DNA from: Candidatus Cloacimonadota bacterium
Lineage (GTDB): Bacteria > Muiribacteriota > UBA6191
DNA length: 64,000 nucleotides
Direction: 5' to 3'
Assembly: GCA_002402105.1 (NCBI GenBank)
Contig: NVVD01000005.1
Location: forward strand, 121,774-185,773
Shown here: positions 26,455-63,289 of the stretch, one piece after another
Numbering within the stretch: the stretch's first letter is position 1
Layout: each line of letters opens with the position of its first letter
Made by a program: the position numbers and the translations under genes
Notes under the pieces: generated by a model
What the model was told of the DNA's origin: nothing
Seen by the model: the letters and a program-made list of their open reading frames with translations, nothing else
Database searches by the model: none

Positions 26455-26463
26455 ATCACTTTT

Positions 26464-26939
26464 TTATTTAAAATAAAAGGTTAATAAATTTATATATCTA
26501 AAGCCTATTTCATTAGTTAAACTTATAAACTCAATGGATTTTTGCCTTAATATACTAACTAAAGCCTGAAATGATTCTTGGTAATCTAAAACATTTAGAG
26601 GAATTGTTAATTTCAAAACAATCAAATGTCTAACTGAGCGAAATTCAAAATGAAAATAAGAATTATTTTTAGATGACTTTTTTAAAGTTAAAAAAATAGA
26701 AACCTCTGAATGATTTTCAGTTTCAAATAACCTTAGAGTTGGTCTTCTCTTTTTAAATCTGAAAGCATCAAAGTTAATCCATCAAATGCACCAGAAGATA
26801 TTAATTGTCTTAAAAATGTATGCGATATCATTTGAAAGTCAACTTCTGAAATAACCCTTGAGTCGTCTTTAAACTCTATTTGATAACCAAATCTCCTGAA
26901 AAAGGACTTGATCAAACTATTGATAGAAAATACTTTCAA
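26464..26939 (-). pseudogene. Probable frameshifted gene of unknown function
   Basis: The minus strand is open from an ATG at 26939 for 68 codons (FSINSLIKSFFRRFGYQIEF ... GLTLMLSDLKREDQL) to a stop at 26733. A second frame, with no start codon, is open from 26781 to a stop at 26464 for 105 codons and looks like protein (RRPTLRLFETENHSEVSIFL ... LNVLDYQESFQALVSILRQK). The two overlap by 49 bases in different frames, as expected from one indel in a gene of about 155 codons. The 5' part also overlaps the remnant on the other strand. No family recognised. It could instead be two unrelated chance frames. Confidence 0.4.
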
Positions 26940-27074
26940 GGAGCTTTATTAAAAGAAAAGAATATTCATCTAATAGGGATAAATTTTGAAGAAAAAGAAA
27001 ACATTGAAGATGATATTTTAGTTATCAATCCAAGAGATAAAGAAAAATTAAAAAAGTTTATTAATAGAAAATAA
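26880..27074 (+). pseudogene. 3' remnant of an AAA-ATPase/PD-(D/E)XK nuclease (DUF1703-type) gene
   Basis: The short frame reads PEKGLDQTIDRKYFQGALLK then KNIHLIGINFEEKENIEDDI. This matches the extreme C-terminus of the large family that joins an AAA-ATPase domain to a PD-(D/E)XK nuclease domain (pattern AL-x-Q-I-x-x-K-x-Y, then I-x-L-I-G-[IV]-N-F-x-x-x-x-R-N-I-x-D). Nothing of the ATPase part or the nuclease core is present upstream, and full members are around 500 residues, so this is a leftover fragment. Its upstream edge overlaps the minus-strand broken gene, marking a rearrangement joint. Confidence 0.5.
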
Positions 27075-27091
27075 AAGAGTAAATATGAAAC

Positions 27092-27382
27092 TTACAATAG
27101 ATTACATCTACTAGAGTTTTGTAAGCTACCATTCCTATTGTAGATGTAATCAATTGCACTATTTACTACACCTGATGCACACTTTTTTATTTGTAAGCTC
27201 CACACTCGGTATAGACTCTTGGATACAGAAGATTTAGAAAAGACATAAATTAATAGGTTTTTACTTTTTGCTCTCGGTGTATTTTCAAAATTTGAGCTGA
27301 CTAAAGACGCATGGTTTTGTGATACAAAAAAGAGGGCGACTAAAGATAAAACTATATGTATGGCTAATCTTTTTAGGTGCAT
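27092..27382 (-). CDS. Possible small secreted protein
   Basis: A 96-residue open frame with a plausible signal peptide (HLKRLAIHIVLSLVALFFVS then QNHAS) and a Ser/Asn-rich mature part with two cysteines (KKCASG and SSRCNLL). The last ~20 codons lie in the inverted repeat at 27100-27151, which suggests the end may not be under protein selection. No family recognised. It lies in the decayed accessory stretch, so it may be spurious. Confidence 0.35.
   Translation of the reverse strand: MHLKRLAIHIVLSLVALFFVSQNHASLVSSNFENTPRAKSKNLLIYVFSKSSVSKSLYRVWSLQIKKCASGVVNSAIDYIYNRNGSLQNSSRCNLL
27100..27151. repeat. Perfect 12-bp inverted repeat
   Basis: GATTACATCTAC (27100-27111) and GTAGATGTAATC (27140-27151) are exact reverse complements separated by 28 bases. 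A shorter CTTAC/GTAAG pair (27091-27095 and 27121-27125) overlaps them. There is no T run. It could be a mobile-element end or a structured RNA end. Confidence 0.7.
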
Positions 27383-27616
27383 TTATTTATTATGCAATAA
27401 TTTGTTGTACTTTAACAAATCATTGGCGCTTTATTTGCACTACACTAGCCTTTAAAATATACTAATTAGGTATGAAAAAGCATGGGATAAATCGGCTTGA
27501 TATTCTTGTTTTTACTTTTAGCGTTAGTTGTATTTTGTAATTCAAACTATAAAGCTACACATATGTCAGGGTTGAAGCCAGAAGTGCATAAACAGTTTAT
27601 TTTGAAGAAAATCTAC

Positions 27617-27823
27617 TTATTCAAAACTGAAATCTAGTAAATCGCCTGGCTTACAGTTTAAAACGGTGCATAATTTTTCTAGGGTGCTAATCTTTATGGC
27701 CTTCACGCGTCCATTCTTGAGCTTGGATAAGTTTGCTTCAGTAATGTTTACTTCTTTAGCTAGGTCTTTTAGCCGAATTTTCCGTTGGGCCATTACAACA
27801 TCTAAATTGAAAATTACTGGCAT
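27617..27823 (-). CDS. XRE-family (Cro/CI-type) transcriptional regulator
   Basis: A 68-residue single-domain helix-turn-helix protein: VVMAQRKIRLKDLAKEVNIT, EANLSKLKNGRVKAIKISTL and EKLCTVLNCKPGDLLDF. The pattern (MAxRKxxLxxLAxxxGIxxxNLSxLKxGxxKxIxxxTLxxLCxxLxCxPGDLL) is the YozG-like subgroup, which is commonly encoded beside a small membrane protein, as here. I chose the ATG at 27823, which shares its A with the stop of the upstream gene (TGATG) and has AGGGAGG before it. It probably represses its own operon through the inverted repeat near 28181. Confidence 0.88.
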   Translation of the reverse strand: MPVIFNLDVVMAQRKIRLKDLAKEVNITEANLSKLKNGRVKAIKISTLEKLCTVLNCKPGDLLDFSFE

Positions 27824-28149
27824 CACACAACCTCGCGCATTTCAAGGATTAAAAGTCTTACTACTTCCAATACATCGCGTATTCTTAGTGAGAGCCAGCC
27901 ACCACCTATAAAGATGATTGTATAGATTATGATATGGATACTTTGGGCAAGTGGCCCATAAAAGGTAAGAAGCGTTCTAAGATTTGAATCATAATCACTA
28001 ACATGAAATCCCTTTGCGAGAAAGATCATACCGACCAAAAAAATTGATATACCTATCTCAATAGAAACTGTTCCTACAAACCCAAACCAGTATGCCCCTT
28101 TTTCCAGCTGATCCATTTTATTTTCTAAGATAACTTCTTCCTCATTCAT
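27823..28149 (-). CDS. Small membrane protein paired with XRE regulator (DUF2975-like)
   Basis: The 108 residues begin with an acidic segment and hold three hydrophobic stretches (FGFVGTVSIEIGISIFLVGM, LLTFYGPLAQSIHIIIYTII, IFIGGGWLSLRI). The end RIRDVLEVVRLLILEMREVV is amphipathic. Position and size recall the DUF2975 membrane proteins that accompany YozG-type regulators, but the family is usually about 150 residues with four helices, so the assignment is tentative. It is the first gene of a coupled pair, with GAGAGGA before its ATG. Confidence 0.6.
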   Translation of the reverse strand: MNEEEVILENKMDQLEKGAYWFGFVGTVSIEIGISIFLVGMIFLAKGFHVSDYDSNLRTLLTFYGPLAQSIHIIIYTIIFIGGGWLSLRIRDVLEVVRLLILEMREVV

Positions 28150-28174
28150 AATAAATCCTCTCTATTTATATACA

Positions 28175-28200
28175 TATATATATCGTACCACGATAAATAT
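28175..28200 (-). promoter_or_regulatory. Candidate operator of the XRE operon
   Basis: TATCGT-ACC-ACGATA (28181-28195) is a perfect 6-bp inverted repeat, extended by near-symmetric AT-rich flanks (ATAtA and aATAT). It lies about 32 bases before the ATG of the membrane protein gene, a typical place for an autoregulatory XRE site. Inference from position and symmetry. Confidence 0.45.
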
Positions 28201-28460
28201 AAGACGTAAACAAATAAATATATGTTTTTATGTTAAAAATGGAGAATAGCTAGCCTGCCTTGAACAGAATATATATTGAAATCAAACTCTATTACACTGG
28301 AATTAGATTCGTTACTGGTGGGCTTTTCAGAAAATACAGATGTAAGTTCAATAGATTGATAATTGAAAAATGTATCAGAGTAAACTTGAGTAGAATTATA
28401 GAAAATGGATTCTTTACTTCCCCTCCACGGAGTGGTCCTAACGGCTAACTATAGCTTTTT
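28201..28460. other. Intergenic stretch between XRE operon and act operon end
   Basis: Together with the operator and terminator this forms a 362-bp gene-free region. The 62-codon plus-strand frame at 28260-28448 has no ribosome-binding site and no recognisable protein pattern. I see no further signal. Confidence 0.5.
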
Positions 28461-28469
28461 TTAAAAAAA

Positions 28470-28508
28470 AATCCCCCCCACAACCTAAAGTTATGAGGGG
28501 GTTTTTGT
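28470..28508 (-). terminator. Terminator of the act operon
   Basis: On the minus strand CCCCCTCATAAC pairs with GTTGTGGGGGG over 12 positions (some G-U) around a TTTAG loop, followed by a run of T. It starts a few bases after the actF stop at 28512. Confidence 0.88.
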
Positions 28509-28511
28509 AGT

Positions 28512-36334: not shown

Positions 36335-36534
36335 TTTTCACCTTTTCCAGTCATTTACATCTCAATGTAAATTCATAAAGCTATTATTTTTTTGGCGATT
36401 ATAATCACCCTTTAATTTCTTGTAAACTAATTATTATGGAAGCATTTGACAAAAAGTACTTATTACCCCTGTCTTTTTGTCAAAATCCTCTTTTTTACTT
36501 TTTATTCAGCCAATAACAAAAAGTAAATTTACTC

Positions 36535-38343: not shown

Positions 38344-38865
38344 ATGATACTTACTGGCAACGAGATACTCAAAGAACTCAATCAATCTATTTTCATATCA
38401 CCTTTTGATCAAAAAAAAGTGAACCCAAATTCTTATAATTTAACCTTAGATAAACACTTAGTGCAATACACAAAGTTTCCTCTTGATATGAAAAAAGATA
38501 ACCCTCATAAGGACTTAGTCATACCAGAGGATGGACTCTTACTAGACCCAGGTATTTTATATTTAGGACGGACAGTTGAACGCACTAAAACTTTAAACTA
38601 TGTCCCAATGCTTGAAGGAAGATCTTCTGTTGGAAGGCTTGGAATGTTTATTCATGTGACTGCTGGATTTGGAGATGTTGGTTTTGATGGTTTTTGGACC
38701 TTAGAAATAATAGTAACTCACCCACTAATTATTTATCCAAATGTAGAAATTTGCCAAATTTTTTATCACACAGTTCAAGGTGAAATCCAAGAGTATAAAA
38801 GCAAATATCAAAAAAATACTGGGATACAAACTAGTATGATGTATAAAGATTTCAATAAATCTTAA
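38344..38865 (+). CDS. dcd: dCTP deaminase
   Basis: Deaminates dCTP to dUTP for dTMP synthesis. From the chosen ATG the protein has 173 residues: MILTGNEILKELN, VNPNSYNLTLD, LLLDPGILYLGRT, VPMLEGRSSVGRLGMFIHVT, AGFGDVGFDGFWTLEIIVTH (the catalytic Glu in TLEI) and YPNVEICQIFY. The GRSSVGRLG-FIHVTAGFGDVGF pattern is shared with bifunctional deaminase/dUTPases, so dUTPase activity is possible but not shown. The longer frame from 38269 adds 25 atypical residues; AAAGGA sits before the ATG at 38344. The 3' end overlaps a small minus-strand gene by 14 bases. Confidence 0.92.
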   Translation: MILTGNEILKELNQSIFISPFDQKKVNPNSYNLTLDKHLVQYTKFPLDMKKDNPHKDLVIPEDGLLLDPGILYLGRTVERTKTLNYVPMLEGRSSVGRLGMFIHVTAGFGDVGFDGFWTLEIIVTHPLIIYPNVEICQIFYHTVQGEIQEYKSKYQKNTGIQTSMMYKDFNKS

Positions 38866-39031
38866 GTTTTTCGACCTTTTTTGAGTCTTCTTTTTCTTCT
38901 GGTTGAGCCCAAGAGTCAATAATCTCAGACACTAAATCATCAACATGAGGCAAATCCCCGTCTTGATGGTTTACCTCTTCTTTTTGCTCAACTTCTTTTA
39001 AAGATGCTTTCTTTTTTTTAGCAAGGCACAT
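38852..39031 (-). CDS. Small charged protein of unknown function (59 residues)
   Basis: A short frame starting MCLAKKKKASLKEVEQKEEV, continuing with an acidic part (DGDLPHVDDLVSEIIDSWAQ) and a Lys/Glu tail ending KIY. GGAG lies five bases before the ATG. The basic head followed by an acidic amphipathic middle resembles small adaptor or anti-sigma-type peptides, but no family is recognised. It follows the terminator of the NtrC-like gene, so it would rely on read-through or a promoter within that hairpin region. Its end overlaps the dcd end on the other strand. Confidence 0.5.
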   Translation of the reverse strand: MCLAKKKKASLKEVEQKEEVNHQDGDLPHVDDLVSEIIDSWAQPEEKEDSKKVEKLKIY

Positions 39032-39048
39032 ATAAACTCCATATTACT

Positions 39049-39076
39049 AAAAAAGACCTAAAATTAGGTCTTTTTT
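39049..39076. terminator. Terminator after the NtrC-like regulator
   Basis: AAAAAAGACCTA and TAGGTCTTTTTT form a perfect stem around an AAAT loop (39049-39060 and 39065-39076). Because it is symmetric it can act in both directions. Confidence 0.88.
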
Positions 39077-39086
39077 AATGTTTTAA

Positions 39087-40442
39087 TTAACTCTCAATAT
39101 CATACTCTTTTAATTTTCTCCAAAGAGTATTACGCCCAATACCAAGGACTTTCGCAGTCATTGCTTTATTTCCACCAAAGGCTTCTAAAGTTTCTAAAAT
39201 CTTAATTTTTTCAAGTTCTCTTAAGGTATAAAAACCACTTGCAGCTTGTTGTTGTAAATTTAGTTTTCTTGGTTCTCTCACTGATTGAGGTACATGAGCT
39301 TCTTGAATAAAAGGGTCATTGCAAAAAATGACCGATCTTTCAACAGCGTTTTTAAGCTCTCTGATATTACCTGGCCAATGATAAGCCATGCACAAATTAT
39401 AAGCACCTTTTGAGTATCCTCTAATTTGTTTTTGATGTTTTACATTCATACCTTTTAAAAAGTATTCCATAAAAGCAGGAATATCTTCTGATCTATCTTT
39501 TAAAGACTCTAACTTCAAATGTAAACCACTAATCCTAAAAAACAAATCTTGCCTAAAGCCTTCTTCATTTACCAGTTGCTCAACATCTTTACTAGATGAA
39601 CAAATAAACCTAATTTTTAAATCAATTTCTTTTACAGAGCCTACGGGTCTAACTTTTCCATTTTCTAAAATTCTTAGTAGCTTCCCTTGAACTCTTTCTG
39701 GTAAAGCCGAAATTTCATTCAAGTAGATTGTTCCACCTTTTGCACTTAATAAAAGCTCCCCACAACCTCTACTTGATAAGTCTTCTGAACTTCCAAAAAA
39801 CTCTTCTTCTCGTTGAGGGTCTTCTAAAGATGAACAATCAACCACTACAAACGGACTCTTATTTGAACAAGCAGATTCATGGATTCTTTGGGCTGTAGTT
39901 TCTTTTCCAGTACCGCTTTGCCCTGTTAATAAAATAGTAGTTGGCAAATTAGCTGCTCGCCTAACCACATCTTTCATTTTTTTGACCGTAAAAGAGCGTC
40001 CAACAATTTCGGCAAATTCTACGGGTTTAATTTCTGGCTCTTTGACCTGTTTTTCTACAGTTTTAGAAGTTACAATTTTTAAAGCTTCTTCGCATCTTTC
40101 AATAAAGACAGGAGGAGTAAAAGGTTTTGTCAAAAAATCAACAGCCCCAGATTTCATAGCCATAACCACGGTTTCAATATCTGGATTTTCAGACATCATC
40201 ATAACTCTGGTTTCAGGATATTCTTTGCAAATATGCCTAAGCAACCACAAGCCATCTTTACCGCTTAAGTTTAAGTCACAAACAACTAATTCAAATATAC
40301 CTTTTTCAAGGCAACTCACGGCTTCTTGGGAATCTGCAACTTCAGCAACGCCAAAACCACCCTTCTCCAAGAACATACCTAATGTTGATCTTAACGTGTT
40401 TTCTTCTTCTACTAATAGAACTTTTCTCTTGCTCTGTTCCAT
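39087..40442 (-). CDS. NtrC-like response regulator lacking the GAFTGA loop and Walker B aspartate
   Basis: A 451-residue three-domain regulator. Receiver domain 1-125: acidic pocket VEEENT (Glu-Glu instead of Asp-Asp), phospho-acceptor Asp56 in VVCDLNLSGKDG, Lys106 in LTKPF. AAA+ domain about 145-380: Walker A TGQSGTGKE (173-181), Walker B GGTIYLNEI (236-244) with Asn where NtrC-family proteins have Asp, LRILENGKVRPVG, and a conserved sensor WPGNIRELKNAVERSV. The sigma-54-contacting GAFTGA loop expected between FFG (215-217) and Walker B is replaced by SSEDLSSRGCGEL. C-terminal Fis-type helix-turn-helix: NKAMTAKVLGIGRNTLWRKL. I start at the ATG at 40442; the frame one codon longer uses TTG. 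It probably acts other than by classic sigma-54 activation. Confidence 0.88.
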   Translation of the reverse strand: MEQSKRKVLLVEEENTLRSTLGMFLEKGGFGVAEVADSQEAVSCLEKGIFELVVCDLNLSGKDGLWLLRHICKEYPETRVMMMSENPDIETVVMAMKSGAVDFLTKPFTPPVFIERCEEALKIVTSKTVEKQVKEPEIKPVEFAEIVGRSFTVKKMKDVVRRAANLPTTILLTGQSGTGKETTAQRIHESACSNKSPFVVVDCSSLEDPQREEEFFGSSEDLSSRGCGELLLSAKGGTIYLNEISALPERVQGKLLRILENGKVRPVGSVKEIDLKIRFICSSSKDVEQLVNEEGFRQDLFFRISGLHLKLESLKDRSEDIPAFMEYFLKGMNVKHQKQIRGYSKGAYNLCMAYHWPGNIRELKNAVERSVIFCNDPFIQEAHVPQSVREPRKLNLQQQAASGFYTLRELEKIKILETLEAFGGNKAMTAKVLGIGRNTLWRKLKEYDIES

Positions 40443-40562
40443 CAAAGACCTCTATTTCATTAATAATGTTACAAAATGGAATATTTTTAATCAGGCAGTA
40501 TACATTATTTAGCGTTAAAGATGCAAAAGTTGAAATGAAATACATAAAAAAAAATCAAGTAT

Positions 40563-40650
40563 CTTATAAAACTGAGACTACTTTTCCTCAAAAAAGCACA
40601 CTTTTTGTCAAAAAAGACAAAATAAAAGCTTTTTAATAGTCTCAGATAAG
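40563..40650. repeat. Nested inverted-repeat structure between divergent genes
   Basis: Four stems lie one inside the other: CTTAT/ATAAG (40563-40567 with 40646-40650), CTGAGACTA/TAGTCTCAG (40572-40580 with 40637-40645), AAAAAGC/GCTTTTT (40591-40597 with 40628-40634) and TTTTGTC/GACAAAA (40603-40609 with 40616-40622). All are exact, making an 88-nt extended hairpin with bulges. It is not followed by a T run on either strand. Confidence 0.7.
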
Positions 40651-40735
40651 ACCATATCTTTTGAGAATAAGACCTCAAAAGAGTAGAATCAAACAATTAA
40701 ACATACTCTTAAACATACCAAAGTCGAGACAAACT

Positions 40736-42774: not shown

Positions 42775-43518
42775 GTGAAAAAAGTTGCATTAATTACTGG
42801 AGGAACTTCTGGAATTGGCTATGCCTGTACTCTAAAATTTTTAGAAAATGGCTACCAAGTATTTGCCACAGGAAGAAACCAAGATAAACTTCAAGCTCTT
42901 AAAGATGAATTATTGAACAAATATCCTGAACAACTCAAAGTAATTCAATGTGACTCTAGTAACGAGCAACAAGTTATTGAACTCTTTGAACAAATTCCAC
43001 ATTTGGATGTTTTAATTAATAATGCTGGTGTCTATGGTAAAAACAACATTTGTGAATCAAGTCTAGAGCAAATTGAACATATGTTTTCAATTAATGTTTT
43101 TGGCTTATTTTTAGTCAGTAAAGCAGCTTTAAAATTAACAACATCCCAAGACCAAAACCTACATATCATTAATATTTCATCTTCACTTGGTAATAAGCCA
43201 GCCCCTGAAACTTCATTTTACTCTGCCTCAAAAGCAGCTGTTTTAAGTTTCACTAAAAGCATCGCAATGGAATACGCCCCAAAAGTAAGAGCCAATGCTA
43301 TTTTACCAGGGGTAGTAAAAACACCTCTTCACGAAGAAAATAAAAATAAAAAAGAAATTGAAGAGTTTTATCAAATGATGGAAGGTTTTCACCCTCTTAA
43401 AACATTAGGTGAAGCATCTTCTGTTGCTGAGTTATGTTTTCAAATTACAAGAGAAGAAATGTCATTTATGACTGGGTCATCTATAGTATTTGATGGAGGA
43501 ATTTCTTTAGTATGTTAG
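42775..43518 (+). CDS. Short-chain dehydrogenase/reductase (possibly sepiapterin-reductase-like)
   Basis: A classical SDR of 247 residues: cofactor loop LITGGTSGIG (6-15), ATGRNQDKLQAL (NADP-type Arg), DVLINNAGVYG, INISSSLGNKP (catalytic Ser), ETSFYSASKAAVLSF (YxxxK) and NAILPGVVKTPLHEE. The start is GTG at 42775, with CGGAGAG five bases upstream; the longer frame from 42577 lies inside the Mrp gene and is rejected. It overlaps the pterin synthase gene start by seven bases. Sepiapterin reductase of the biopterin pathway is an SDR, and its neighbour is an animal-type PTPS, so a biopterin role is inferred. Motifs alone cannot decide the substrate. Confidence 0.85.
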   Translation: MKKVALITGGTSGIGYACTLKFLENGYQVFATGRNQDKLQALKDELLNKYPEQLKVIQCDSSNEQQVIELFEQIPHLDVLINNAGVYGKNNICESSLEQIEHMFSINVFGLFLVSKAALKLTTSQDQNLHIINISSSLGNKPAPETSFYSASKAAVLSFTKSIAMEYAPKVRANAILPGVVKTPLHEENKNKKEIEEFYQMMEGFHPLKTLGEASSVAELCFQITREEMSFMTGSSIVFDGGISLVC

Positions 43519-43961
43519 ATCAAAAAGTATTTTTATCACGTAAGATTTTCTTTTGTTCTGGACATCGCTATCACATAAATGAATGGAGCGATGAAAAAAA
43601 TAAAGAGGTATTTGGCCCTTGCAACAATCCCCACGGCCATGGACACAACTATGAACTTGAAGTAACAGTTTATGGCCCCATTGATAAAAAAACTGGTATG
43701 GTAATAAACCTTACCGACTTAGATGCAATTCTTAAAACAAGTATCATGAAGCCACTTGACCATAGATTTTTAAATTATGAAGTAGACTACTTTAAAAAGA
43801 TTGTACCGACCACAGAAAATATAACAGTTTTTTGCTTTTTAGAGATTCAAAAGTTAATTCCTAATGGAATCGATTTATATAGAGTTAAACTTTATGAATC
43901 AAAAGACTTATTTGTTGAATACTATGGTGAAAATCATGATTTTAAAAACAAAAACCTATAA
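43512..43961 (+). CDS. 6-pyruvoyl-tetrahydropterin synthase family enzyme (animal-type motif set)
   Basis: A 149-residue T-fold enzyme acting on dihydroneopterin triphosphate. Zinc His residues are in FCSGHRYHINEW (His18) and NNPHGHGHNYELEV (His43, His45). The catalytic Cys is Cys37 in FGPCNNPHGHG, then MKPLDHRFLNYE (Asp83, His84) and VPTTENITVFCF (Glu102), followed by VKLYESKDLFVEYYG. The layout and the spacing of FGxCNNPxGHGHNY and MKPLDH match mammalian PTPS rather than the shorter QueD of queuosine synthesis. With the coupled SDR this suggests tetrahydrobiopterin, although a queuosine-type activity cannot be excluded. It overlaps the SDR by 7 bases and the next gene by 26. Confidence 0.85.
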   Translation: MLDQKVFLSRKIFFCSGHRYHINEWSDEKNKEVFGPCNNPHGHGHNYELEVTVYGPIDKKTGMVINLTDLDAILKTSIMKPLDHRFLNYEVDYFKKIVPTTENITVFCFLEIQKLIPNGIDLYRVKLYESKDLFVEYYGENHDFKNKNL

Positions 43962-44334
43962 ACTTCCTTGTCATCATCGATTAATCAGCAATCAATTAAG
44001 CCATAAAAGTAACTTAAAGATTTTTTCAAAGTGTATGGGCTTATATGGACACGGACATGAATATCTCATCCGCTTAAGTTTTCGACTACAAACAAATGAT
44101 TTTGAACTTGAAAAAAAAGTTGACCAACATATTTATGATAAAGTCATAAAGTTATTCTCTCATCAAAGCTTAAATAAGGTTTTTAAAGACATAGGAATTC
44201 AAAACCCTATTACAACAGGAGAGCAAATTGTTTTAATATTTGCTAATATTCTCAATCAAGATATAATTTCAAAAAATTACTATAAAATAGAAGTAGTAGA
44301 AACACCTAAAAATAGTTTTTACCATTTTTTTTAA
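43936..44334 (+). CDS. Second 6-pyruvoyl-tetrahydropterin synthase/QueD-like protein
   Basis: A 132-residue diverged paralogue of the preceding gene. Zinc histidines are in KLPCHHRLISNQ and GLYGHGHEYLIRLSF. The Cys lies in FSKCMGLYGHGHE, LFSHQSLNKVF is in the place of the LDH segment (Asp replaced by Ser), ITTGEQIVLIFANI in the place of the TEN segment, and VVETPKNSFYHFF at the C-terminus. So the fold and zinc site look retained but the Asp of the catalytic pair is changed. I start at the ATG at 43936 with GGTGA upstream; earlier in-frame ATGs at 43864 and 43924 overlap more of the first copy. Tandem duplication followed by divergence is the likely origin. Confidence 0.65.
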   Translation: MILKTKTYKLPCHHRLISNQLSHKSNLKIFSKCMGLYGHGHEYLIRLSFRLQTNDFELEKKVDQHIYDKVIKLFSHQSLNKVFKDIGIQNPITTGEQIVLIFANILNQDIISKNYYKIEVVETPKNSFYHFF

Positions 44335-53152: not shown

Positions 53153-54207
53153 CCAAAATCTCCTCTAAGCATTAAAGAGTCACCTAGTGCTTTTGTTTCT
53201 AATAAGTTAAATTCTTTATCTTTTTCTAAAAAAAGCCCGTCTTTACCATTTGAAGCAAAGTATTTCATTCCAAAAAATAAGTAAAACTCATCAATTAAAT
53301 TTTCTTTTAATAAAAAACTACTGACTTCTTTTCCACCCTCAACAAATAAAGAGTCAATCCCTTTTGAATATAAATCTTGCAAAACAAGTTTCCAAATAAC
53401 AGTATAGTTTGAGTTCTTTGCAATAGTAATTTGTTCTATATTTTTTAAAAAGTCTAACCTTTTTATACAACTATAATAAAATACTTTTTTAGATTTAAAA
53501 ATTTTTAAATTTCTATCTAGCTTGGCTGTTTTATCAATAACTATAATAATTGGATCATCACCTTTTAAATGACGAACATTTAACTCAGGATTATCTTCAA
53601 TTAGAGTTGTATTACCAACCAAAATTGCTTTATGTAAAGACCTCATTTTATGCACTTCAAAACGAGATTTATCTCCTGTAATCCATTTTGATGTCCCATC
53701 TTTTCTTGCTATTTTTCCATTCAATGTTTGAGCTAACTTAACACTAATTTTAGGCCTTTTTTTTATTTGATTAATAAAAAAAACTTTATTAACCTCAATA
53801 GCTTCTTTTGATAAAAGCCCACTTTGACATTCAATACCTTCTGCTCTTAAATAGTCTAGACCACCCTGAGCTTTGGGGTTTGGGTCAAGTACAGCACAAA
53901 TAACTCTAGTAATACCAGAGTCTAAAATTGCCTTTGTACAAGGCGGAGTTTTTCCGTAATGGTTACAGGGCTCAAGACTTACATATATACTTGCACCAAC
54001 TAAACTTTCATCAGCATTTTTAATTGCATCAACCTCAGCATGGTCACTACCAAATTCCCTATGATAACCAGAAGCAATAATTTTAAAGTTTTTTACAATT
54101 ACTGCCCCAACCATAGGATTTGGTGAAACCTTTGTTTGCCCTTTTTTTGAAAGATCAATAGCAAGGGACATAGCCTCTAAATCAAGCTTTGAAAAGTTAT
54201 TTCCCAT
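53116..54207 (-). CDS. ribD: Riboflavin biosynthesis deaminase/reductase RibD
   Basis: Bifunctional: deaminates and then reduces the pyrimidine intermediate. Deaminase (1-145): SPNPMVGAVIVKNFKI, GSDHAEVDAIKNA (zinc His56, Glu58), SLEPCNHYGKTPPCTKAILD (Cys81, Cys90). Reductase (150-360): RPKISVKLAQTLNGKIARKD, STKWITGDKSRFEVHKMRSL, AILVGNTTLIEDNPELNVR, IDSLFVEGGKEVSSFLL. Length 363 is normal. Its ATG lies 11 bases inside the stop of the giant upstream protein (ATGGGAAATAA), so translation is likely coupled, and its end overlaps ribE. Confidence 0.95.
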   Translation of the reverse strand: MGNNFSKLDLEAMSLAIDLSKKGQTKVSPNPMVGAVIVKNFKIIASGYHREFGSDHAEVDAIKNADESLVGASIYVSLEPCNHYGKTPPCTKAILDSGITRVICAVLDPNPKAQGGLDYLRAEGIECQSGLLSKEAIEVNKVFFINQIKKRPKISVKLAQTLNGKIARKDGTSKWITGDKSRFEVHKMRSLHKAILVGNTTLIEDNPELNVRHLKGDDPIIIVIDKTAKLDRNLKIFKSKKVFYYSCIKRLDFLKNIEQITIAKNSNYTVIWKLVLQDLYSKGIDSLFVEGGKEVSSFLLKENLIDEFYLFFGMKYFASNGKDGLFLEKDKEFNLLETKALGDSLMLRGDFGCLQELLKSLEK

Positions 54208-57200
54208 TTTTAAAGTTAACCACTAAAGATAATGAATAAATAAGTAAATACATGGCTAGCATTAAAGCAAATAAACTCATAAAACCTGAAGATAAAATAA
54301 AAGCAATTGGATATAAGATCATAAATGAAACCATACGCAACAATACAGATTCTCTAATCACGCCCGCAAAAGGTGGAGAATAAATATAATATAGATTCAT
54401 TAGTTCTCTACCAAAGTAAGATTTAATTAAGTAGCTATCTCTAAAACCTGTAAAGGTTTTCACTAACCACGAATTTTTAGATCCAGAAGTTGCCGTAACA
54501 ATAAAACAGCCCCCTCCACCTCCGCCGCCTTCATCTTCAAAAACAACATTTTGAGCATTTGTAACATTGTCAACTTGTGCTGGACTATTCGTGCTTGAAG
54601 TACTTCTTCTTACAAAAACTTCTACATCATCTGGCAATGATTGTTGGCTTAAGTTATCTTTAATTTTTAATTGAAATTTATAATTTCCTTCTTGATCTGG
54701 AAAAAAGAATGGACTCTTTGTTCTTGGATTATGTAATTCAACAATAGGACCACTTTCTTGATTCCATATATATTGAAAATTGGCATTTTGAGCAAACGAA
54801 GAACCACCATCTAAAACAACTCTTTTATTAAAACCCTCTACATTAAAATCAAAACCTGCGCTTGCTTGAGGAGAAGATTGATTTTCAGTACTAATCACCA
54901 TTACAAATTTATCTGATAAACTAAAATATTTACCATCAAAACTTCTAACCTTATACTCATAATAACCCGGTGAAAAAAAGCCCGAAGGAGTACAACCTAA
55001 TGCTCCTCCCGTTGTTATTAAAGCAGCTGGACCACTTTCTTGTACCCATTCACATTGCACATTTATTGAGCTGCACTTTTTAAATAATGAAGGGTTTTTA
55101 CTTAAGGCACCAAATGTTACTATCTTACTTTTCCCTAAGCTCGTTAAATTAAAATAATCATCATCAAAACATTTAGGTTCAGGTAACTCTAAACCCTGTC
55201 TTCCACTACTAGAAAATGTTTTTGTAACAATACTATCACCTGCATCAATTAGCGGAATAAAACCATTTGAACTACCATGTTTTGAAAAGTCATTAGCTAT
55301 AATAGTAATAATTGTTGGTAAAGAGCTTATCACTCTACCACTTACTTCTTTTACTCTATAAACCATTTCAAAGCTATAAATACCTATTTCATTTGGAACA
55401 AACTCTACCAAACTACAATTTCTTGTTAAAGGTTTCAACACACTTGTTAAGCCTTCTATTTGAGTCCATTGATAGCTTAATATTACACTAGTACTTAAAC
55501 AATTATTTTCTGCTGGCAATAAAGTCTCAGGTAAAATGCTTAAATTTGTATCTGTACTCGAACCTAAACCAGAAATTTTAAGCTTATGATTAATAGGCGC
55601 TTTGTAAATACTATCTTCTGATAAGTTATCAATCGTTTGAATCGATTTACTAATTGACTTATTTAAATTACTTACACTTAACCGTGAAATAGACTGAGAT
55701 AAATCAGAAGTTACGCTTCTTGGACCCCCCTCTATACTTGGTTTAGCTAAAGTTATTTTTTGATTTGATTTTCTTACCAAAATCTTAATACAACTTGGCT
55801 CGCTTCTTAAGCCTTTTCCTTGGGCTTCAACGACTAAATTTATCCCATATAAACCGGGCTCTGTATATTTAACTCTTGGGTTAACTCTATTTAAAGTTGA
55901 TTCATTTACATTGATAAATGGACTTGCTGTTTGTGTAGAAAATACATTGGCTTTACATTTTATATCTGATAAAGAACATTCTACTCTACAACGGTTTGCC
56001 ACATTTAAACTATTATTGTTAATAGGGGTCCAATAAAAGTTTAATCCTTTACCAAGAGTTTCTGCTGAAGATAAATCTCCTGATAATTGAAACTCTGAAT
56101 CTACTGTAACAACTCGATCAAATCCTGCTTGTGCCATAGGAAATCTATCATTATCACTATTTACATATATTGTAACTTGATCTCTACCAACCGCTCCAAA
56201 ATCGTCTGTTACAATCAATTCAAAAATATACTTACCAGTACTTCTTGTTACAAAACTTGTAAAAGAGCTTGTTTCTGTTTTTATACCAAGTTGAGAAGAA
56301 ACTAATTTTTGCTCCTCTAAAGATGGTCCACTGATTTGAATCCAGCGATATGCTAATAAATCTTCATTTGCATCATATGTACCTCTACCATCTAAAAGTA
56401 CTAAAAAGTTAACCGTCCCTACTTTTGAAACTCCAGCGTTTGATTCAGGGGCTAAGTTTTTTACACGATATAAAACCGTATCTTTTTGAGTTACAACTCC
56501 ACGATTTGTTATGATTCTAAGAGATGCTACATAATCACCAGATCTCTTAGCATTAAAAAATGTTTTTTCTTGATTGGATTGATCTACAAGTGGAGAAGTA
56601 ATTGTTAAAACTGTACTTGTTGGAATTGACTCTAACTCCCATAAATATGTTAGTTGCTCTTTTGTAAAGCCATTTTTAATCGTCTTACTTGCGTCTAATA
56701 CGATTACACCTGGACTTGCATTAATAATATCATCCCCAGCATTTGGAATTGGTAATTGATCAAATGAATTATACATATCAAAAGCACAGGGAGTCGCATC
56801 ATTTGGATCTCTATTTAAAACACAAAGTCTAAACTCTTCAATATTATTTACACCATCATCGTCAAAATCTAATAAAGCATCATTTGGATCAAATTTATCT
56901 AAATCTGGATAATTTGGAGATTCTTCTAAAGAGTCTGGTAAACCATCTGAATCTGAATCTAAATCTAGATCTCCTTCTCCATCTAAATCTTGAAGAATTA
57001 AATTTTTTGAGGGAGTTTTAAATTTTAAACTCTTAGTTTCTAAAAGAGGGTTTATACCATTTCCTAAACGATCTTCAACATAAATAGCTACTATATACTC
57101 TGTGCCCCCACATAACGTGGTTTTTTGAAAGCTAATTGGAGGAGCATTTTGCCCTTGATTTAGAACTCCACAAAATTCACTATTTTCTATTCCAAAATCA

Positions 57201-60200
57201 ATTACATGGTTTTTTTTATAGGTACCACTTGTTGCTTTTATTTGTTCTGTTATAACTCCGATATAATTACCACCAACTAAAGCTAAAACTGATACATAGC
57301 CAATTGCTTCTTCATTAGTTTCAAATGAAAATTTCGCTTTATTTATATCAATATTAGTTGTTAAAGGGTTTGTAATTAGTGGAGCCGTGGTATCTACTAT
57401 AACAATAAACTTTAAAGCTTTTTCATCTAATGTTTTGTTTCCGTATTGATCAACAGCATGCACTACAAAACGATTAACCCCTTCTATTAGGTTAGTTGCT
57501 ATAAATTCCCAACGAGTTAAACTATTAGATAAAGCATCTGTTGATTGTTCTGAACTTTGATTATCTAAATTTTGAACAATTAATCTAGAAAACTCCTCTT
57601 TATTTCCACTTAGTTTAATAGTTTTTGCAGAAAAAGAAAAGCCAGATATTTCATCGTCTAATATAGGAGTAATAGGAGGTACAACATCTACTTCGACATT
57701 ATTGCCAACAATATCATTTATTAAGCCCTCTTTAAAAGTTATAGACTCTTTGTTTAGCTCTTGAGAAGATATATCACTAGCAACTTCAGACAAACCTTTA
57801 AATGGAAACGAACCATCATCAAAATACTTCACCTTATGAACTAATTTACTAATATTACCTAATAAATTTATATCTATTTGTACATTATCAGAGTTCTGAA
57901 TAAAAGCGGTAGTCTGAGCTTGCTCATTTAAAGCCTGAACTTCTGCTAGCTTTTCATCTCCTACTTTTAAAGGCAATACTAGTTTGATTTGAGCAATCTT
58001 ATCATAAGCACTTTTTGAAGCTGATGGAATATCTATAGTATAAACAACTAATAAGCCTAAGCGATTTCTAGCCTCCTGCAAAACTGTTTTTTGATCTCTT
58101 AAATCTTGCTTTTTAATAATTAGTTTAACTCTAGTAGCTACTCCCAAGCCGTTTAAAGAAGCATAGGATATATCTGAAAATAGCGCTTGATTAAACACAG
58201 CTGCATTTTCTCCCACTGCCCCAACTACTGCCCCCACATAGCGTCCATCATTTGTAAGCTTTGTTATGCTTGTTGTAGCTAATAAAACATCTGAATTTAC
58301 ATTAAACTTTCCGTCTGGTTCTCCGGGTTTCCAGTTGGGAGAATTTGGTAATACATCTAAAGTTGATTGATCTAAATAAAGCTTAATTGAATTTGGAGCA
58401 ACTGGTTGAACCAATGCAGTTTCTCCATCGCCACCTTCTCCTGATAGTAATAAACTCATAATAGGGCCTGTAAAAAAGACTCTTAAGTTATCTAAAGTTA
58501 CGTCTTCTCTATAGCCTCCAATAATACTTATTCCCATTCCTTCAATATTAGTCGTTTGTATTCCTATAGTTTGAGTAGTAATAGATAAAGAACTTGCTCC
58601 CCCAACAAATAGTTTTCTTGTCTCTAAAATAGCTAAAATATCTGGTTGCTCTAATCTATAAACAGCTTGACTCGTTGTATTACTACTTTTTATTAAAGAA
58701 CCATTAAAATAGTTATAAATAGCTTTATTAGCCCAATTAACAGATACAGTAGCTTTGTTAATAATACCTGTTCCTATTTTTATTCTTTGAATATGAGGGT
58801 ATTCATACTTAAACCTTTTACTATAGGTTTTATTTACAAATGAGCCAACTCTATCTGGATTTTCAAATTTACCCTGAATTGTAATAACGCCTTCTAATAA
58901 AGCATTTGAAGTAAATTGAGAAAAGTTTCTTGGAACTAAATCAAAAATAAAGTAATTATTTATATCATTAGCAGGGGGAGTCGCTATACAAAGCTCATTG
59001 CTAGCTGGCTGGCTACCACCTCTTGATACATAATAATCCATATACCCATCTAAATTTACATCCATAAAGTTTATATGTTGATTCAAGCCATCTACACTTG
59101 TTCCGCAATTTAGTGAAACTAAAGAACCACCTGTAGATTTTTGTTTGTCTAGCTGAATATCATAAAAATAAGCCCTATTTTTATTCAAAATAGCTAAATC
59201 TTGAAATGCATCATTATTAAAGTCAATAATTTGCCCACTAACCCCATCTCCTTTTGACATTTCAGAATCTGGCGGTAAATCACTCGCTTTTACTTCTGTA
59301 AAAGCAGAGCCTTTAAAGGTGTATAGCTTATTTATTTGATCTGTATTATTTGTCCCAGAAGTTACTGCCCCTGAATCTTCAACAGATGTATTTATATAAT
59401 AAATATCCTCTAATGTATCGTTATTTAAATCTCCGATTATAACATCTCTATTTTCTACAGAATCTGCACTATTTGTTGGGTTTAAACCTGCTAACTCACC
59501 ATCTGACTCTGCACCTGATACATGAAACATAGTTGAAACATTATTTATAGTTCCTTCTTCAAGCTGCTTTGATACAAATAGTCTTTCAGGTCCTCTATTA
59601 TTTAAAATAAATAAATCACTCTTTCTATCATTTCCTAAAGAAAATACTTTTGCTTGTACACCTAAAAAATAGTTTGTAGAATTTGCTAGAGCTGAACGAT
59701 TTGCAATTTCTCTGGAAGAGGTCGTAAATGAAGAGGAAGGTTTCTTGAGCTTATACCCATCTAATGGACGAGTTGTTGCTTCAAAGTTTCTTGAGCCTAA
59801 CATTAAAAAGGATTCATTATTTGTAGCTTTACTTTCATTAAAACGATTTAAAAGATAGAAATCTTTTCGACCATCTGAATTAAAGTCCCCAATTGTAAAT
59901 GTAACACCGTTACCCGTATCATTTTCTACATAATCTAACCCTGTATTCGGGTTTAACCCTGCTTTTCTTTTTAACTTTTTCAATTCATAAAAGTAGGAGT
60001 TTCCCTCATCTTCGCCACGTTTCATTTGAGTAAGTTCAATTACATTTTTAGCGATTAATGATTTTAATCGAAACCTCTTAAAAAAGCTCTGATTTGATAA
60101 GGTAACTGAGGTTTTAAAAACATCTAATAAAACAGCCCCTCTTACAGTATCATCTTCTGAATTTAAAGCTAATAGTTTTGAAAAATCCATTCCTTCTCTT

Positions 60201-63200
60201 CTATCAATAAAGGTAGGACTAGATTTTAATTTTCCCGAAACTGGAGTTATTCTAAAGTAAAAGTTATCCGGATCTATTAAATTATAAGTTGCATCTGTTA
60301 AATCTAAATCTCTATTAAAATGAGTTTTTAAAGTAAAAGATAGAGTCACTTGGCTCTTTGTAACAGTATCAATTAATACTCTTGTCACTAATTTAAAACC
60401 TTCTGGAGTCTTATTAAATATAGATACTAAATCATTTCTTGCAGAATTTGTTTTTGTAGTGAAATCAAAGCTATCATTTTGATATTCTACAATTTGATCT
60501 TCTTTTAATTTACCCTTATGAATAACTTTAAACCCTAGTTTAGTGAAGTCATAGTCATTATTAAAAGGAGGTAAAGCACCATTAATATTAGATAAAAGAG
60601 CCACATTTGATTGACCATTACTAGACTCTAACTCTTGAACTTCTACTGTATATAGCTTACCCGTTGTAGTAGAAAGTCTATCAACAGAAGTTTCAAAAAG
60701 CTCTAATAAATCACCTGTGTTTACATTAAGGTCTGTAAATCTTAATTTATCTGAAAACATTCTAGTTTCACTAAATACTCGTGGAGCAGTTTGATCTCCA
60801 TTTGTATCTAAAGCACTAGTAGACATAAACTCATAAGCTGTACTCGTCACTCTTGGAGCACTAGCAAAATATGCTTCTGTATCAACATCTCCAACAGCAC
60901 AAGCCAAAACTGGTACAGCTGTGTTACAGCTAGCCTCAAGCTCTGTAAAAAACCCTGGTAAGGGATCGTTGGCTAGAGTTAAAATAGCTCTTCTTCCTTC
61001 TTGTAGTTTTTCAATTCTTGTTATTTGTCTTTTTGTTTTATAATTACTTGTAAACACTAAATAATGACCAACTTGAACGTGTCTTGGCAATCTATTAAAT
61101 ACAGTAACCTTATTTCTTTTTTCACCAACATTAACATATGGGTTTGCTGATAATCCATAAAAAATAGGACGATACTCAAGATTTAAAAGGGGTTGATTTG
61201 TAAGAGCCAAATTCGGGTCTTGAATCTGAATTTTATGTTTGGATAAATTTGTAAAAACATCTGCTCCAGCTAAAAACTCTATTAAATTTAAATTTATCAC
61301 ACTATTATCTGACGATAAAAATACGCTAATTTGAGGAGGAACAGGAGACCTATCATTATCTGTAATCATTATTCCAAGAGTTGTATCAAATTGTCTTACT
61401 CTTGGATCATCAATAGCAAACTCTTCAAAAATTTGAATTGGACCATCAAAAGTATTTTTTTCAGATAGTCTTCCAAACATTGACCTAGTTTGATAAGGAA
61501 AGTCTATATTTTTTAAGTCACTTACTTCTGAAGGAAAAGCATCTACAACTAAAATTGTTGAACTTTTAATATCTATAATTTGCAATCTACCCGATGGTCT
61601 GGTTATCGTTGGATTTGCTCCTAATATTCCTTTTCCAAATTGTGAACGGTTAGGATCAACCGCAGAAGTTTGATCTGACGAAAAACTGTTTGTTCCTGTT
61701 CCGTCAAGAGATGGGTCTAACACTATTTGATCATTAGCTTTAAATTGGGAACTGCCTGCAAATTCAGTAGCATCAAAAGCAGAGGGAGGTAAACCAAAGT
61801 TAGCTGTTTTATCTTCAAAAAACCTTTGTGTCCTAGCACTAATACTTCTTCTTATTACTTCATAGGGCAGGTTTTCTCCTATATTTGTAACTAAGTCTGC
61901 TCCATTTAAAAAGACGACCCCTTCATCACTAATAGACTCTACAGTATATACATTACAAGCATCTTTACCATAAACTTTACCCGGTTGCTTTGGGCAGGCT
62001 AACTTAACATCAACAATCTGAACCTGATCGCCTGGTTGAAGATTTTCTCCTCTTAGATCAACAGCTCCATCTTTTAGAAATTTTTGAAAAACAATTTCTC
62101 CATTTTTTCTACGCACTCTTGTATCAAAGGTATTTTCTAATAATTGAAGAGTACCATTTTCATCCGGTAATCTAGGAATCGGACTAACGTTTAAATTATT
62201 TTTTGTTACCCTACCCAAAATATTAACTAAAGTTTCTTTGATTGTACCACCCTGTGATCGAAACATAATCAATTGATCACCCGAAGATATCTGACTCTCA
62301 GTTAGTGATGTTGTAAAACTTGTGGATGTTTCATACAATAAAGGATCAAAAACTGGTCCAGAAACTCTATTAAAACTATTTTCAAAAATACCTAAATCCT
62401 CTAGATTAGATAAACTATCCTGTACAATTTTATAACGATTTACAATAGAGTTTTCATTAAAGTTTTCATCTTCTAAAGATAGCCTTAAGCTTGTTTCACT
62501 TAAAACATCTAAAATAACTAATCTTTGATTTTTACTTTGATTGAGCTCAATATACATACCTGGTGTAACTCTTGGTATTTGACTAATAAATCTTTGAGAA
62601 CTATCTATAAAAATTTTATTTGTATCAAAAGGAGTATTTACAGGTAATGTAGCTACATTCAACACTTCAACAAAAGCCTCATTTGCTAAAAATCCCGAAA
62701 CTTCTTTAGTATGAAATGAATAACCTTGCTCATTTAATAAGTTTGCTTGCTCTATAACACTTTTTTCACTAAATGGATCGTATTTTCTTGTTGGAGAAAA
62801 TAAATCATTGATAAACAATCGATTAAGACCATCATTTACCACATATAAATCTAAATCACCATCTTCATCAAAATCTACCCAATTTGCATATTTAGATGAG
62901 CCAACCCCATCTTTTAACCTATTCAAGTTTGGAAAGCTTGTATGCGTTAACTTCGTAAAGCTAAGAGCTCTGTCATCACTTACATCAATTGTATTTTTTG
63001 TTCTTTCTGTTGCTCCAAAACCTTTACAAACCGTATTTGGAGAAAAGTGTCCACAATAATTGTTTAAAAAAAACTCATTTGGAGCACCATCATTTACAAT
63101 ATATACATCTAAGTCACCATCTAAATCAAAATCTCCCCAAGCTGTATGGACACTATTTTGTCCTATAGGTAATACGATGGATTGACCCGAAAATTTTTGA

Positions 63201-63289
63201 TACTCAATAGCTATTAAATTAGAATTTAAAACTACAAATAAAAGCAATAAATAGTCTAGTTTTATTATTTTTTTTATGGCCAAACACAT
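54197..63289 (-). CDS. Giant 3030-residue surface protein with FG-GAP, calcium-binding and PKD-like repeats and a CFI-box C-terminus
   Basis: Signal peptide (1-27) then FG-GAP/VCBS units with calcium-loop cores: GDFDLDGDLDVYIVNDG (~52), VDFDEDGDLDLYVVNDG (~138), IGDFNSDGRKDFYLLN, IGDLNNDTLEDIYYIN, IDFNNDAFQDLAIL, MDVNLDGYMDYYVSRG. Further on are beta-rich domains of unknown type, a cadherin-like loop GVNRFVVHAVDQYGNKT, thrombospondin-type-3-like Asp repeats (DLDGEGDLDLDSDSDGLPD, DFDDDGVNNIEEF) and several PKD-like domains (RWIQISGPS, YIWNQESGP). The end is a Gly run and CFIVTATSG at about 2928, then a hydrophobic tail with membrane helices: the CFI-box C-terminal sorting-type signal. It is probably anchored or processed at the envelope. 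It overlaps ribD by 11 bases. Start MCLAIKKI is conventional; alternatives in the leader are possible. Confidence 0.85.
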   Translation of the reverse strand: MCLAIKKIIKLDYLLLLFVVLNSNLIAIEYQKFSGQSIVLPIGQNSVHTAWGDFDLDGDLDVYIVNDGAPNEFFLNNYCGHFSPNTVCKGFGATERTKNTIDVSDDRALSFTKLTHTSFPNLNRLKDGVGSSKYANWVDFDEDGDLDLYVVNDGLNRLFINDLFSPTRKYDPFSEKSVIEQANLLNEQGYSFHTKEVSGFLANEAFVEVLNVATLPVNTPFDTNKIFIDSSQRFISQIPRVTPGMYIELNQSKNQRLVILDVLSETSLRLSLEDENFNENSIVNRYKIVQDSLSNLEDLGIFENSFNRVSGPVFDPLLYETSTSFTTSLTESQISSGDQLIMFRSQGGTIKETLVNILGRVTKNNLNVSPIPRLPDENGTLQLLENTFDTRVRRKNGEIVFQKFLKDGAVDLRGENLQPGDQVQIVDVKLACPKQPGKVYGKDACNVYTVESISDEGVVFLNGADLVTNIGENLPYEVIRRSISARTQRFFEDKTANFGLPPSAFDATEFAGSSQFKANDQIVLDPSLDGTGTNSFSSDQTSAVDPNRSQFGKGILGANPTITRPSGRLQIIDIKSSTILVVDAFPSEVSDLKNIDFPYQTRSMFGRLSEKNTFDGPIQIFEEFAIDDPRVRQFDTTLGIMITDNDRSPVPPQISVFLSSDNSVINLNLIEFLAGADVFTNLSKHKIQIQDPNLALTNQPLLNLEYRPIFYGLSANPYVNVGEKRNKVTVFNRLPRHVQVGHYLVFTSNYKTKRQITRIEKLQEGRRAILTLANDPLPGFFTELEASCNTAVPVLACAVGDVDTEAYFASAPRVTSTAYEFMSTSALDTNGDQTAPRVFSETRMFSDKLRFTDLNVNTGDLLELFETSVDRLSTTTGKLYTVEVQELESSNGQSNVALLSNINGALPPFNNDYDFTKLGFKVIHKGKLKEDQIVEYQNDSFDFTTKTNSARNDLVSIFNKTPEGFKLVTRVLIDTVTKSQVTLSFTLKTHFNRDLDLTDATYNLIDPDNFYFRITPVSGKLKSSPTFIDRREGMDFSKLLALNSEDDTVRGAVLLDVFKTSVTLSNQSFFKRFRLKSLIAKNVIELTQMKRGEDEGNSYFYELKKLKRKAGLNPNTGLDYVENDTGNGVTFTIGDFNSDGRKDFYLLNRFNESKATNNESFLMLGSRNFEATTRPLDGYKLKKPSSSFTTSSREIANRSALANSTNYFLGVQAKVFSLGNDRKSDLFILNNRGPERLFVSKQLEEGTINNVSTMFHVSGAESDGELAGLNPTNSADSVENRDVIIGDLNNDTLEDIYYINTSVEDSGAVTSGTNNTDQINKLYTFKGSAFTEVKASDLPPDSEMSKGDGVSGQIIDFNNDAFQDLAILNKNRAYFYDIQLDKQKSTGGSLVSLNCGTSVDGLNQHINFMDVNLDGYMDYYVSRGGSQPASNELCIATPPANDINNYFIFDLVPRNFSQFTSNALLEGVITIQGKFENPDRVGSFVNKTYSKRFKYEYPHIQRIKIGTGIINKATVSVNWANKAIYNYFNGSLIKSSNTTSQAVYRLEQPDILAILETRKLFVGGASSLSITTQTIGIQTTNIEGMGISIIGGYREDVTLDNLRVFFTGPIMSLLLSGEGGDGETALVQPVAPNSIKLYLDQSTLDVLPNSPNWKPGEPDGKFNVNSDVLLATTSITKLTNDGRYVGAVVGAVGENAAVFNQALFSDISYASLNGLGVATRVKLIIKKQDLRDQKTVLQEARNRLGLLVVYTIDIPSASKSAYDKIAQIKLVLPLKVGDEKLAEVQALNEQAQTTAFIQNSDNVQIDINLLGNISKLVHKVKYFDDGSFPFKGLSEVASDISSQELNKESITFKEGLINDIVGNNVEVDVVPPITPILDDEISGFSFSAKTIKLSGNKEEFSRLIVQNLDNQSSEQSTDALSNSLTRWEFIATNLIEGVNRFVVHAVDQYGNKTLDEKALKFIVIVDTTAPLITNPLTTNIDINKAKFSFETNEEAIGYVSVLALVGGNYIGVITEQIKATSGTYKKNHVIDFGIENSEFCGVLNQGQNAPPISFQKTTLCGGTEYIVAIYVEDRLGNGINPLLETKSLKFKTPSKNLILQDLDGEGDLDLDSDSDGLPDSLEESPNYPDLDKFDPNDALLDFDDDGVNNIEEFRLCVLNRDPNDATPCAFDMYNSFDQLPIPNAGDDIINASPGVIVLDASKTIKNGFTKEQLTYLWELESIPTSTVLTITSPLVDQSNQEKTFFNAKRSGDYVASLRIITNRGVVTQKDTVLYRVKNLAPESNAGVSKVGTVNFLVLLDGRGTYDANEDLLAYRWIQISGPSLEEQKLVSSQLGIKTETSSFTSFVTRSTGKYIFELIVTDDFGAVGRDQVTIYVNSDNDRFPMAQAGFDRVVTVDSEFQLSGDLSSAETLGKGLNFYWTPINNNSLNVANRCRVECSLSDIKCKANVFSTQTASPFINVNESTLNRVNPRVKYTEPGLYGINLVVEAQGKGLRSEPSCIKILVRKSNQKITLAKPSIEGGPRSVTSDLSQSISRLSVSNLNKSISKSIQTIDNLSEDSIYKAPINHKLKISGLGSSTDTNLSILPETLLPAENNCLSTSVILSYQWTQIEGLTSVLKPLTRNCSLVEFVPNEIGIYSFEMVYRVKEVSGRVISSLPTIITIIANDFSKHGSSNGFIPLIDAGDSIVTKTFSSSGRQGLELPEPKCFDDDYFNLTSLGKSKIVTFGALSKNPSLFKKCSSINVQCEWVQESGPAALITTGGALGCTPSGFFSPGYYEYKVRSFDGKYFSLSDKFVMVISTENQSSPQASAGFDFNVEGFNKRVVLDGGSSFAQNANFQYIWNQESGPIVELHNPRTKSPFFFPDQEGNYKFQLKIKDNLSQQSLPDDVEVFVRRSTSSTNSPAQVDNVTNAQNVVFEDEGGGGGGGCFIVTATSGSKNSWLVKTFTGFRDSYLIKSYFGRELMNLYYIYSPPFAGVIRESVLLRMVSFMILYPIAFILSSGFMSLFALMLAMYLLIYSLSLVVNFKNGK

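Follow-up and report, generated by a model that had tools for sequence, protein, structure and literature searches.

An NtrC-family response regulator lacking the GAFTGA loop and the Walker B aspartate

Results

A regulator with the NtrC layout and altered motifs

The gene under study lies on the minus strand of the window, i.e. the whole 64-kb stretch of DNA analysed here. Its reading frame starts with an ATG at 40442, has a GAGG 7 nt upstream of it and ends at 39087. An in-frame TTG directly precedes the ATG, and residues are numbered below from this TTG (452-residue form). The gene and its features are the following.

39087..40442, minus strand: regulator gene, 451 aa from the ATG; GAFTGA-less NtrC-type response regulator made of a receiver, an AAA+ domain and a Fis-type helix-turn-helix (HTH)
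40092..40421, minus strand: receiver domain (Pfam Response_reg 9-117 and residue table), with the acidic cluster E13-E14-E15 following V12
39900..39923, minus strand: intact Walker A GQSGTGKE, residues 175-182 (alignment)
39753..39791, minus strand: SSEDLSSRGCGEL, residues 219-231, replacing the L1/GAFTGA loop (alignment)
39711..39725, minus strand: Walker B YLNEI, residues 241-245, with Asp changed to Asn at 243 and Glu 244 kept (alignment)
39588..39593, minus strand: sensor I, Thr-Asn changed to S284-S285 (alignment)
39102..39227, minus strand: Fis-type HTH, residues 407-448 (Pfam and orthologue alignment)
39048..39077, no strand assigned: hairpin with a 13-bp stem and a T tail, just 3' of the gene (sequence)

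Four Pfam domains were found, all well above their cut-offs: Response_reg (9-117), Sigma54_activat (147-310), AAA lid (316-395) and HTH_8 (407-448). Together they form the domain set of an NtrC-family response regulator. In the receiver, the phosphoacceptor D57, S85 and K107 are all intact. Among the features of sigma-54 activators (bEBPs), Walker A with its Lys 181, the arginine fingers R298 and R304 and the sensor II R362 are present, but GAFTGA and the Walker B Asp-Glu pair, which carries ATP hydrolysis, are not. Lys 181 and R362 are the residues on which ATP binding depends. The L1 stretch reads FGSSEDLSSRGCGELLLSAKGG, and region 217-240, FGSSEDLSSRGCGELLLSAKGGTI, falls short of the canonical loop by about 3 residues. 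A first, sequence-only reading of this DNA had described the receiver, the Walker A and the Fis-type HTH as present, the GAFTGA loop as absent, the Walker B Asp as replaced by Asn and the receiver Asp-Asp as Glu-Glu. The Pfam search and the alignment bore out each of these points, and the change of sensor I to Ser-Ser comes in addition. The hairpin downstream of the gene is likely a terminator usable from both sides. Between the regulator and the next gene, dcd, lies a small ORF of 59 aa (38852-39031, minus strand, MCLAKKKK...DLPHVDDLVSEIIDSWAQPE...), and a similar DLPKVDDLVSQIVAGWAQPE ORF occupies the matching position in another species of this genus, hereafter the congener.

The substitutions are rare among homologues

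Residues were aligned with those of 72 other homologues, comprising paralogues, phylum relatives and proteins from other bacteria. All 72 have both the Walker B Asp and the Walker B Glu, and 71 have the Walker A Lys, the remaining one showing a gap. The sensor I Asn is found in 62/72. In the receiver, position 14 (the second acidic residue) is Asp in 61/72, and Glu at position 13 is common enough (11/72) for only the second Glu of the regulator's pair to count as rare. The L1 loop is GAFTGA, or a variant differing by one or two letters, in nearly all of about 70 other homologues. The glutamate switch also differs, Asp replacing Asn in the regulator, but this should be given no weight, since the position is variable elsewhere (N in 53, D in 7 and S in 7 of the 72). 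Loss of GAFTGA is uncommon but known, as around 110 of some 5000 such proteins surveyed had a defective motif (PMC3162934). Given the counts at the Walker B Asp and at position 14, and the identical changes in the independently assembled congener, the odd features of the regulator exceed what chance would produce.

Orthologues and the probable order of loss

Syntenic orthologues were found in the congener (94.7% protein identity) and in two genomes of a sister genus (50-52% identity). In the four genomes the gene order is tpr, ptps2, ptps, SDR, mrp and the nanoRNase-type gene on one side of the regulator, and dcd, nhaD, actA, actB and actC on the other; the contig of the fourth genome ends inside actB. 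The two tandem 6-pyruvoyltetrahydropterin synthase-like genes (43512-44334) are kept in 4/4 family genomes. The four orthologues formed one clade in a tree, with a support of 100, in which the sister group of the family was not resolved. In a search of 382 genomes they scored between 880 and 893 bits, and the next best match, which bears GAFTGA, reached 394 bits.

We examined whether the same substitutions recur across these orthologues, as the sequence-only reading had suggested. GAFTGA is absent from all four proteins. Every substitution listed above is common to the two congeners, but the Walker B Asn, the sensor I Ser and the receiver Glu-Glu are confined to this genus (2/4 orthologues). 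In the sister genus, L1 reads ELFGSSRGERRGVLLEGKGG, likewise without GAFTGA, and the proteins keep LFLDEI, GTNK and a receiver E-D-D; one of their arginine fingers is a Lys. On the most economical account, loss of GAFTGA probably came first, in the ancestor of the family, and that of the catalytic residues later, in the genus of the window. GAFTGA may also have been lost twice independently, because the L1 deletion differs in length between the genera (about 3 residues in the window's genus, about 7 in the sister genus).

Purifying selection rather than decay

Several catalytic residues are gone from the regulator, as they might be in a decaying pseudogene or through an assembly error. This explanation has a negligible probability, and we rejected it on the rates of substitution and on synteny. 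The frame is intact, and the same residues are found in two separately assembled genomes. Between these two species, synonymous sites are saturated (pS 0.75) and the protein is nevertheless conserved: pN is 0.044, less than in most neighbouring genes, and dN is among the lowest of the neighbourhood. Synteny is conserved across the four genomes. Taken together, the comparisons indicate that the regulator is under strong purifying selection.

The 24 amino-acid differences between the congeners all fall within residues 70-314. The last 137 residues, i.e. the end of the lid and the HTH, are identical (P about 1e-4 under an even spread of differences); the DNA-binding part is therefore the most tightly held by selection. 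The recognition region of the HTH, GIGRNTLWRKLKEY, is identical in both genera, suggesting that the DNA site it reads is conserved too.

Sigma-54 is still present in these genomes

The rpoN gene, which the sequence-only reading had proposed to look for, was found in the window's genome and in the other three genomes of the family. At least 10 paralogous EBPs with GAFTGA-like loops are encoded in the window's genome. Since rpoN is present, the loss of the motif from the regulator is not due to the disappearance of sigma-54. More than one sigma-54 gene was seen: both congeners carry divergent extra copies besides the main rpoN, one of which, in the congener, is an open frame of 683 aa. In the window's genome, two of the rpoN loci match exactly over 3474 bases, which is probably assembly redundancy.

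The same reading had called for a search for -24/-12 promoters. This gave nothing above chance, with 27 sites found in the 64-kb window against 22 expected. The only -24/-12-like site of the window with a single mismatch (27424-27439, plus strand) lies in a stretch of about 2 kb devoid of any ORF of at least 110 aa (26455-28511).

The regulator might still act on sigma-54 RNA polymerase, either through a non-canonical L1 or as a non-hydrolysing subunit in rings formed with its GAFTGA-bearing paralogues, where its effect would be dominant-negative or modulatory. The genome contains rpoN and the paralogues, and PspF rings tolerate some defective subunits, although the T86A mutants of its L1 sustain little transcription even in mixtures with the wild-type protein (PMC4132715). 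We regard this possibility as very unlikely. Indeed, L1 is conserved neither between the congeners (SSEDLSSRG versus SSDDLSGNG) nor between the genera, unlike a contact surface, and -24/-12 sites are at chance level in the window.

Resemblance to known GAFTGA-less proteins

The regulator has the sequence traits of GAFTGA-less EBP homologues: the AAA+ domain of the family, a lost GAFTGA and a gene under selection. Its predicted fold had a pLDDT of 78.6 and a pTM of 0.50, the arrangement of the domains being uncertain. With this model as query, the closest solved fold by E-value was NtrX of the alphaproteobacterium Brucella abortus (PDB 5m7n/5m7o/5m7p), which has the same receiver-AAA+-HTH layout and whose aligned L1, of similar extent, also lacks GAFTGA. 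NtrX keeps the Walker B Asp (YLDEV) where the regulator has Asn. The best NCBIfam model was NtrX as well, but with 282.6 bits against a cut-off of 600, and no NtrY_N protein was found in the four family genomes by a search that did recover the Caulobacter control. Membership in NtrX was rejected on these two grounds, so that the match points to a likeness of build. Membership in NtrC, the nitrogen regulator, was likewise rejected (244.1 bits for the equivalog TIGR01818, cut-off 558.6).

NtrC of Rhodobacter capsulatus and of Caulobacter share with the regulator a receiver-AAA+-HTH layout in which the GAFTGA loop is deleted (PMC10274813); the regulator adds the Walker B and sensor I losses, and belongs to another lineage and another gene neighbourhood. 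VpsR of Vibrio cholerae is a GAFTGA-less bEBP at sigma-70 promoters (PMC10274813) and was also among the fold matches, but it depends on c-di-GMP, whereas the regulator has intact receiver phosphorylation residues. HupR, TyrR and DhaR are sigma-70-dependent EBP homologues that likewise have a defective GAFTGA (PMC3162934). HupR is a receiver protein from a different lineage. TyrR and DhaR have no receiver, unlike the regulator.

Discussion

GAFTGA is the motif that contacts sigma-54 (PMC7175178), and published NtrC-family proteins without it regulate sigma-70 promoters (PMC10274813, PMC3162934), among them the NtrC proteins of R. capsulatus and Caulobacter (PMC10274813). Their reported dependence on ATP varies: at these promoters R. 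capsulatus NtrC has to bind ATP but not to hydrolyse it, VpsR can do without ATP, and the NtrC of Caulobacter needs its ATPase residues, hydrolysis being seemingly required (PMC10274813). The best reading by analogy is that the regulator works like R. capsulatus NtrC, NtrX, VpsR and HupR.

From the behaviour of R. capsulatus NtrC, VpsR and Caulobacter NtrC (PMC10274813), we thus consider it quite probable that this is a derived member of the NtrC family of response regulators, one that no longer activates sigma-54 RNA polymerase and that binds DNA at sigma-70-class promoters under the control of phosphorylation and/or ATP binding, with little or no ATP hydrolysis. Phosphorylation of D57, binding of ATP, or both, would determine how the ring-forming domain oligomerises, and its oligomeric state would in turn control DNA binding by the Fis-type HTH. 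ATP would be bound with little or no hydrolysis and sigma-54 would not be remodelled; binding alone would activate or repress the promoter, the data fitting repression no less well than activation. The sequence-only reading had already proposed a sigma-70-type regulator. The orthologues, the presence of rpoN and the published GAFTGA-less relatives all support this proposal; action at sigma-70 promoters is itself what we infer.

Some ATPase activity may remain, because the Walker B Glu is kept and neither arginine finger is changed. One may go further and suppose a hydrolysing ATPase switch at sigma-70 promoters, the mode of action put forward for Caulobacter NtrC, given that Walker A and sensor II are intact too. 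This would suit the sister genus well, where the Walker B Asp and the sensor I Asn are kept. For the regulator of the window it seems unlikely, as both residues are lost in its genus, and even in the sister genus one arginine finger is a Lys. Work on E108 of PspF bears on the role of Walker B (PMC4132715).

GAFTGA-less NtrC-family regulators are already known; what is added here is the loss of catalytic residues and an order of loss that can be dated. A single syntenic gene would have gone through two steps, losing first, in the ancestor of the family, the loop that contacts sigma-54 and later, in one genus, the ATPase residues. The bacteria that show this series still have rpoN as well as ordinary activators, and the series makes testable whether ATP hydrolysis in such proteins is maintained solely for sigma-54 remodelling. 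An automatic annotation as sigma-54-dependent regulator would be mistaken here.

Two further features lie upstream of genes at the locus.

40443..40734, no strand assigned: divergent intergenic region between the regulator and the nanoRNase-type gene (sequence comparison)
36445..36484, no strand assigned: candidate operator upstream of actA, a perfect 12-bp inverted repeat TTTGACAAAAAG-N16-CTTTTTGTCAAA (congener comparison)

The first region contains a genus-conserved 21-mer (40551-40571) and one TTTGTCAAA (40604-40612). A regulon search with the 21-mer returned an exact copy at the regulator gene only. No dyad was common to the upstream regions of the regulator in the four genomes, and no NtrX- or NtrC-like site (GCA-N9-TGC, TGCAC..GTGCA) was found in the intergenic regions of the locus.

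The repeat upstream of actA was found by looking. Its spacing is identical in the congener (40-bp span), with a changed spacer, and the pair is unique of its kind in the genomes of both congeners. It is likely the operator of the act respiratory operon (alternative complex III), whichever protein binds it. A copy of the repeat arm, TTTTGACAAAAAG, lies upstream of the regulator; the 4.6-Mb genome has only three exact copies, the third of which precedes a flagellar hook gene. TTGACA is also the -35 box of sigma-70 promoters. Linking the dyad to the regulator is only a guess, since the copy upstream of the regulator is not conserved in the congener, no such site is present at the locus in the sister genus and the motif came from inspection. 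It is a clearly unlikely scenario that the protein is a pseudo-ATPase whose ring state is set by ATP binding without hydrolysis and by receiver phosphorylation, that it controls the act operon locally through the TTTGACAAAAAG dyad, and that this lineage preserves intermediate stages in the loss of sigma-54 function.

Elsewhere in the window, a secreted-type repeat protein of 3030 residues is encoded at 54197-63289 (minus strand). Its end, made up of a stretch of glycines, CFIVTATSGS and a hydrophobic tail, resembles a C-terminal sorting signal.
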